Source of the DNA: Actinomycetota bacterium
Lineage (GTDB): Bacteria > Actinomycetota > Actinomycetes > Actinomycetales > Microbacteriaceae
Reading direction: 5' to 3'
DNA: 51,539 bases
Assembly (NCBI GenBank): GCA_947450345.1
Contig: CANFVD010000006.1
Location: 1-51,539, forward strand
The notes beneath the pieces are model-generated. The model had not been told where the DNA came from. It ran no database searches and worked only from the letters and a program-made list of their open reading frames with translations. This document shows, one piece after another, positions 42,081-43,764 of this stretch. How positions within the stretch are numbered: position 1 is the stretch's first letter; each line of letters opens with the position of its first letter. A program made the translations under genes and the position numbers.

Positions 42081-42629
42081 CTAAACCGCGCGAGCCGCGG
42101 GCGTGACGGTGGCGCTTCTGCCCGGGAGGGCGTACCCACCAAAGTTGTCGTTCGTCTCGTCGACGAGCATCTTGGCTGATACTTCGTGCCCGTCCCATTC
42201 GTATCCCGTGGTGGTGTGAGCATCCGACATCAGGGTCACGTCATAACCGCGCTCGAGTGCGGCGTGTGTGGTGTGGCGGATGCAGTTGTTGGTCTGCATG
42301 CCGCAAACGAGCAGCTGCCCCACGCCGAGGTCGCTCAGCACCGACTCAAGGTTGGTGGCTTCGAACGAGCTACGAAACTCTTTGCGCACGCGTGGTTCGT
42401 GGGCGAGCGGTGTGAGCTCATCCACGAGCTGCCATTCGGCCGAGTCAATGGGCATCTCCTCGTCGGAGTGCTGCACCCACACAACGGGGATTCCCCCGGC
42501 TCGCGCGCGATCCACGGCACTAGCGATCGTGGCGATGACCTCATCGCGGTGATAGGCGCCTTCGGCAACGCCCTCTTGGACATCGATCACGAGAAGGGCG
42601 GTCTTGTCTCGGCCTGTGAGTGTGCTCAT
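42081..42629 (-). CDS. Isochorismatase-family cysteine hydrolase
   Basis: KTALLVIDVQEGVAEGAYHRDEVIATI...VWVQHSDEEMP...LLVCGMQTNNCIRHTTHAALERGYDVTLMSDAHTT. Confidence 0.93.
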   Translation of the reverse strand: MSTLTGRDKTALLVIDVQEGVAEGAYHRDEVIATIASAVDRARAGGIPVVWVQHSDEEMPIDSAEWQLVDELTPLAHEPRVRKEFRSSFEATNLESVLSDLGVGQLLVCGMQTNNCIRHTTHAALERGYDVTLMSDAHTTTGYEWDGHEVSAKMLVDETNDNFGGYALPGRSATVTPAARAV

Positions 42630-42671: not shown

Positions 42672-42693
42672 CTCAATTCAATAGCGTGTGATG
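42672..42693 (+). repeat. Left copy of 22-nt inverted repeat flanking ssrA
   Basis: CTCAATTCAATAGCGTGTGATG; 21/22 identical to the reverse complement of 43146..43167. Confidence 0.85.
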
Positions 42694-42717
42694 GCCAGCT
42701 GAGCGCATTGCTCGTTG

Positions 42718-43089
42718 TGGAGATGGGGGGAATTGAACCCCCGTCCACTGCTGTGATTGTGAGTCTTCTACGGGTGTAGCAAGTGAAAACGTTCTACTCG
42801 GCTCCGACCTTTGTCACTGGCACCTAAGTCGACGAGCCCAGCCCGAGTAAGTGTCCCGTGGAGCGCTCAGACGTCACGCCACGGCAAGTTCTCTTAATGA
42901 CGCCGAGAACGAAGGCGAGAACAGACCTTCATACCGACGGACTTCAGGCTCGTTGCTCTAGGCAGCGAGGGCGAAGTCGGCGCGCTTTGTATTGGCACCT
43001 ATAGTTTGCGGAGAGCGTTTACGAGATAGCTCCGCATCCTCGACCCGCTTCTCTCCCGCTCGCAGGCAATGTCGAAACCGATCATCCCC
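42718..43089 (-). ncRNA. ssrA: Transfer-messenger RNA (tmRNA), tag (A)ANTKRADFALAA
   Basis: 5' GGGGATGATCGGTTTCGACATTGCCTGC; internal tag ORF GCCAATACAAAGCGCGCCGACTTCGCCCTCGCTGCCTAG; 3' GGACGGGGGTTCAATTCCCCCCATCTCCA pairing with the 5' end. Confidence 0.95.
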
Positions 43090-43145
43090 ATGAGTGGCCC
43101 GGGCCGCTACTGCCCCAAGACAGGTCGCAACGCGGAGGCTGGTCA

Positions 43146-43167
43146 CATCACACGCTATTGAGTTGAG
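43146..43167 (-). repeat. Right copy of 22-nt inverted repeat flanking ssrA
   Basis: CATCACACGCTATTGAGTTGAG on + strand; reverse complement CTCAACTCAATAGCGTGTGATG. Confidence 0.85.
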
Positions 43168-43287
43168 AACCCGGCGAACCGGTCGTGCACAATTGACTGC
43201 GCTATCGAAGGATACAACGCGCACCTGACAATAAACATTCCGGCTGCCACAACGGGAGCAGGCCGGTGGCCGGGTGAGCGAAACGGG

Positions 43288-43764
43288 CTAGTCGCCCAGA
43301 TTGCGCCGAGCAGAGATGGCCCGATCAGCCTCGCGCTTGTCCTGACGCTCCCGAAGTGCCTGGCGCTTGTCGTAATCCTTCTTACCTTTGGCGAGCGCTA
43401 GCTCCACCTTGGCGCGACCGTCGGTGAAATAGAGCTTGAGCGGTACCAGTGTGTAACCGCCCTCCTTGATCTTCTGACCCAGCTTCACAATCTCCTGCTT
43501 GTGCATGAGGAGTTTGCGCTTGCGCCGCGGCGAGTGGTTGTTCCACGTGCCCTGCGTGTACTCGGGAATGTGAACGGCGTCGAGCCAGCACTCACCGTTT
43601 TCCACGAAGGCGTAGCCATCAACGAGGGATGCCCTGCCCGCGCGGAGCGACTTGACCTCGGTGCCGCTCAGCACCATGCCCGCCTCAAAGGTGTCTTCAA
43701 TGAGGTAGTCGTGGCGCGCCTTACGGTTGGTGGCCACCACTTTTTCGCCGCGTTCCTTTGGCAT
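43288..43764 (-). CDS. smpB: SsrA-binding protein
   Basis: [83 protein letters not shown]. Confidence 0.97.

Follow-up and report, generated by a model that had tools for sequence, protein, structure and literature searches.

The ssrA locus and its flanking repeat

The window (the whole 51,539-nt stretch of DNA that was analysed) contains a gene for tmRNA, the bacterial ribosome-rescue RNA, on its minus strand (Table 1). According to Rfam model RF00023, the tmRNA occupies positions 42715-43089 (-). Between the gene and its downstream neighbour no terminator-like site was found in the window. The position of smpB directly upstream of ssrA is shared with close relatives, and the closest named SmpB matches include those of Leifsonia, Cryobacterium, Agromyces, Clavibacter, Curtobacterium and Rathayibacter, which points to Microbacteriaceae as the family. 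The encoded 3' end of the tmRNA at 42715-42718 (-) is ACAA, not ACCA; among the loci of the same genus, L015 and L021 also have ACAA and L009 has ACCA. As ACCA is encoded in just 81 of the 120 loci with a readable acceptor end, the CCA must be added post-transcriptionally in the remaining loci.

Table 1. Features of the ssrA locus in the window and the basis of their assignment.
Feature	Position	Strand	Basis
ssrA (tmRNA), tag ANTKRADFALAA	42717-43089	-	ARAGORN
smpB (tmRNA partner gene), directly upstream of ssrA	43288..43764	-	PF01668, E 4.5e-62
Isochorismatase-domain gene, next downstream, same strand as ssrA	42081..42629	-	PF00857, E 2.4e-36
Probable -10 element TATCCT, 50 nt upstream of leader motif	43209..43214	-	positional enrichment, 111 loci
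5' (leader) arm, outer part (right-hand repeat copy)	43146..43167	-	folds, covariation
3' (trailer) arm, outer part (left-hand repeat copy); transcript reads CATCACACGCTATTGAATTGAG	42672..42693	-	folds, covariation
Inner leader strand: CCAGC (43138-43142, pairs with 42695-42699) and CGCGTTGC (43127-43134, pairs with 42704-42711)	43127..43142	-	folds
Inner trailer strand: GCTGG (42695-42699) and GCAATGCG (42704-42711)	42695..42711	-	folds
boxC-like core AACTCAATAGCGTG, in common with the 16S rRNA leader	43151..43164	-	sequence comparison

A first-pass annotation of this DNA had described a 22-nt inverted repeat with one mismatch around the tmRNA gene. The repeat was recovered at the same positions, with the left copy CTCAATTCAATAGCGTGTGATG read on the plus strand and the right copy CTCAACTCAATAGCGTGTGATG read on the minus strand, identical at 21 of 22 nt, and it lies far beyond chance expectation. 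No further copies with up to three mismatches were found in the window (100 shuffles likewise gave 0) or across the 1.68-Mb assembly. The proposed genome-wide search for the 22-mer thus returned only the two copies at ssrA, and a dispersed repeat was ruled out. Two details of the earlier description were corrected. The distances to the tmRNA, given as 25 and 57 nt, were slightly off, since the left copy begins 21-23 nt beyond the 3' end and the right copy stops 56 nt ahead of the 5' end. In addition, the length was under-reported, as the complementarity runs further inwards, to about 35 bp in total. Between the two arms lies ssrA and nothing else.

A leader-trailer helix in Microbacteriaceae

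The repeat is the outer part of a leader-trailer helix of about 35 bp that encloses the minus-strand pre-tmRNA. In the RNA, the pairing proceeds in the order CUCAA/UUGAG, UCAAUAGCGUGUGAUG/CAUCACACGCUAUUGA, CCAGC/GCUGG and CGCGUUGC/GCAAUGCG, interrupted by one C.A mismatch and small internal loops. The energy of the helix is -63.0 kcal/mol, compared with a mean of -27.0 and a best value of -41.5 in 2000 shuffles, and folding of the precursor, a check suggested with the first-pass annotation, gave the same helix with z = -3.3. A long-range stem in a pre-tmRNA had been one of the readings offered there; folding, covariation and phylogeny all lend it strong support.

The conservation of the helix was analysed in 121 ssrA loci of Microbacteriaceae, drawn from the genomes of relatives. 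The leader motif was present in 117 of them, and in 111 of these it paired strongly with its own trailer, so that a helix encloses the mature RNA in 111 of the 121 loci. Both arms were found in L009 and L015, which belong to the window's own genus; in a third locus of the genus, L021, the copy runs into the contig edge. The core of L009 shows a change from U-A to C-G. The arm sequences vary from genus to genus with complementarity preserved, and the trailer follows the leader through compensating changes, G-U pairs among them. Conservation of pairing is weak for the outermost pairs (24-44% at the alignment ends).

Leaders paired with their own trailers had a mean energy of -41.0 kcal/mol; when the trailers were dealt out to other genomes, the mean was -27.3 (sd 0.41) and the lowest permuted mean was -28.8. 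Mutual information, calculated from leaders and trailers that had been aligned separately and hence structure-free, placed all 10 of the 10 strongest column pairs on one antidiagonal, the best value being 0.67 versus a permutation maximum of 0.41. Two-sided compensated changes numbered 326 across 20 pairs (permutation maximum 162). On a tree built from the mature tmRNA, each of four pairs underwent 14-19 switches of pair state, and at these leader and trailer changed jointly in independent comparisons (median p 0.004-0.04). Together, these comparisons argue strongly for an RNA helix retained by compensatory change. In ssrA loci, several core positions are nearly invariant in the leader although the trailer positions they pair with are variable; the leader strand may therefore be under an additional constraint, for example the binding of a protein.

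A TANNNT -10 element was found 25-80 nt upstream of the 5' arm motif in 106 of the 111 helix loci; as a control, it occurred in 15 of 111 within the next 50 nt upstream. Because this element lies upstream of it, the 5' arm is part of the transcribed leader. The distance from the end of the motif to the mature tmRNA 5' end is 20-82 nt (median 37). At the other end of the transcript, the lack of a terminator-like site before the downstream gene in the window suggests that the helix may also release the tmRNA from a longer transcript. A simple rule by which the helix replaces a terminator was considered as well and fails: a hairpin with 8 bp or more that begins within 100 nt was found in 60 of 111 helix loci and in 5 of 10 helix-less loci.

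Relation to rRNA operons and to other ssrA loci

The core AACTCAAYAGYGYG is a conserved motif of the Microbacteriaceae 16S rRNA leader, located roughly 170-250 nt upstream of 16S, and in all 26 of the 26 rRNA loci carrying the motif, part of the 16S-23S spacer is complementary to it and forms a pairing with it. A search with the 14-mer in 18 genomes gave 33 matches, which were assigned by hand from locus coordinates, and 30 of these lay in rRNA operons or at ssrA (19 in rRNA leaders, 3 on the opposite strand in the 16S-23S spacer and 8 at ssrA). The 3 matches elsewhere, of which L089 and L097 resemble coding sequence and the third is in G011, were taken as chance.

The motif presumably matches the exact NusA ligand sequence of M. 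tuberculosis reported by Beuth et al. 2005. Its identification as boxC is based on this match together with the boxC of M. tuberculosis rRNA, which binds NusA and forms one strand of the duplex where RNase III excises pre-16S rRNA (PMC6614801). In E. coli, the 16S leader-trailer helix bears boxC and an RNase III site (PMC10250234). The helix at ssrA is similar to the pre-16S helices of both species in that a long duplex of leader and downstream flank surrounds a stable RNA, with a conserved element in the leader strand. With the pre-16S helix of the same family it also shares an identical core, which pairs there with the spacer. Unlike these helices, it encloses a tmRNA of about 370 nt from a single gene and not a ribosomal RNA, and its strands outside the shared core differ from those of rRNA. 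Because the enclosed RNA is tmRNA, the helix appears to work like the rRNA helix yet is not an rRNA element.

Compared with a standard ssrA system, neither the mature tmRNA nor its partner SmpB is unusual, and RNase P is still expected to act at the 5' end. To our knowledge, the standard tmRNA precursor has no leader-trailer helix. No published leader-trailer helix or boxC at ssrA was found in the open-access literature.

The genome of the window encodes a NusA-type KH domain gene and an RNase III gene; the latter was not found in two relatives of the same genus, the genomes of which are incomplete. Since RNase III is nearly universal, the presence of its gene lends weak support to cleavage of the helix.

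In 10 of the 121 family loci the helix was not found, so tmRNA can mature without it. These ten loci require at least four changes on the tree, and several of them again have the motif abutting the mature tmRNA. In L133 (G115), which was scored as helix-less, inspection by eye revealed, upstream of the motif, the leader sequence GTGGAATG and its possible trailer counterpart CATTCCAC. As these may belong to a diverged helix placed further upstream, the ten helix-less loci represent an upper bound.

In Streptomyces, Kineococcus, Cellulosimicrobium, Nocardioides and most other families of the order, a related motif directly adjoins the mature tmRNA, and their loci have no such helix. For Actinomycetota outside Microbacteriaceae as a whole, the motif usually abuts the mature tmRNA without a helix; in helix-bearing loci it is pushed upstream by the inner strand. 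Among the loci outside the family, L004, L005, L049, L236, L249, L254 and others have a TGACAACTCAACA-like motif whose last nucleotide directly precedes the mature tmRNA 5' end, where RNase P would be expected to cut. Also outside the family, L039, L048 and L241 pair better than almost all shuffles. One relative carries a pair of ssrA genes (L165, G102:C7:175332-177104) that are separated by about 1.4 kb and encode the same tag, ANAKRTDFALAA; the motif is present in both leaders, each trailer having its own complementary arm. In an rnc mutant of S. venezuelae, ssrA RNA rises (PMC12096830); this result is not direct support for the proposed cleavage, because the Streptomyces loci analysed here lack the helix.

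Possible functions of the helix

The first-pass annotation had also offered two readings of the repeat at the level of DNA. The inverted orientation of the copies and their near identity in the window would fit promoter or regulator-binding sites that drive sense and antisense transcription of ssrA. This reading is very improbable: the 5' copy lies downstream of the conserved -10 element, a simple sigma-70 scan of the window locus found no site, and the trailer tracks the leader as an RNA pairing partner, G-U pairs included, without keeping a site sequence. That tmRNA genes are common integration sites and that the repeats are inverted around the gene would suit repeats that mark the boundaries of an ancient insertion at ssrA or, as a variant considered here, the ends of an invertible segment. 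Such an origin is still harder to credit, as the arms bracket ssrA alone, smpB keeps its upstream position in close relatives, the genome holds no additional copies, and the arms change together across genera and stay complementary.

A different alternative accepts the helix and denies that it is chiefly an RNase III substrate; it would serve as a folding clamp that unites the tRNA-like ends, or as a shield against exonucleases. The E. coli 16S leader-trailer helix, which has a role in 30S assembly that does not depend on RNase III (PMC10250234), provides a precedent. This role is nevertheless rather unlikely to be the main one, given that the core sequence is common to the helix of actinobacterial rRNA processing; moreover, a helix that is cleaved could also act as a clamp.

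Cleavage by RNase III is considered the most likely function, given the presence of the RNase III gene and a core identical to that of the leader-spacer helix in the rRNA of the family. The structure is very probably a processing helix of the rRNA type that is cut by RNase III to release the pre-tmRNA, and the enzyme that excises tmRNA in Microbacteriaceae is probably the one that excises rRNA. The order of steps that we infer would be as follows. Transcription would begin just upstream of the 5' arm, and RNA polymerase would pass first the boxC-like motif, then the tmRNA and finally the 3' arm, possibly running on into the downstream gene. The trailer would then fold back on the leader and enclose the folded tmRNA in a long double-stranded stem, which would resemble the closure of leader and spacer around 16S rRNA. 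RNase III most likely cleaves this stem to give a short pre-tmRNA, and RNase P at the 5' end, followed by 3' exonucleases and CCA addition, would complete the tmRNA.

The leader sequence is kept beyond the need for pairing and matches an rRNA leader element; it may therefore be bound by a protein, possibly NusA as part of the elongation complex, that holds it until the trailer has been made. Binding of NusA to the leader motif is plausible. A more extended proposal, put forward tentatively, is that tmRNA in Microbacteriaceae is made like a small rRNA, with NusA or an rrn-type antitermination complex binding the shared boxC-like leader, carrying it to the trailer and presenting the helix to RNase III.

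The maturation of tmRNA is usually regarded as tRNA-like. Here, an actinobacterial family with plant-associated, soil and freshwater members encloses its tmRNA in an rRNA-like helix bearing an rRNA leader motif. The abutting motif without a helix outside the family and the repeated absences of the helix within it provide natural comparisons. If RNase III and NusA act on the helix, the level of tmRNA, as the main RNA of ribosome rescue, would be coupled to the ribosome-producing machinery; if tmRNA is indeed produced in an rRNA-like manner, the supply of rRNA and that of tmRNA would share transcription and processing control.
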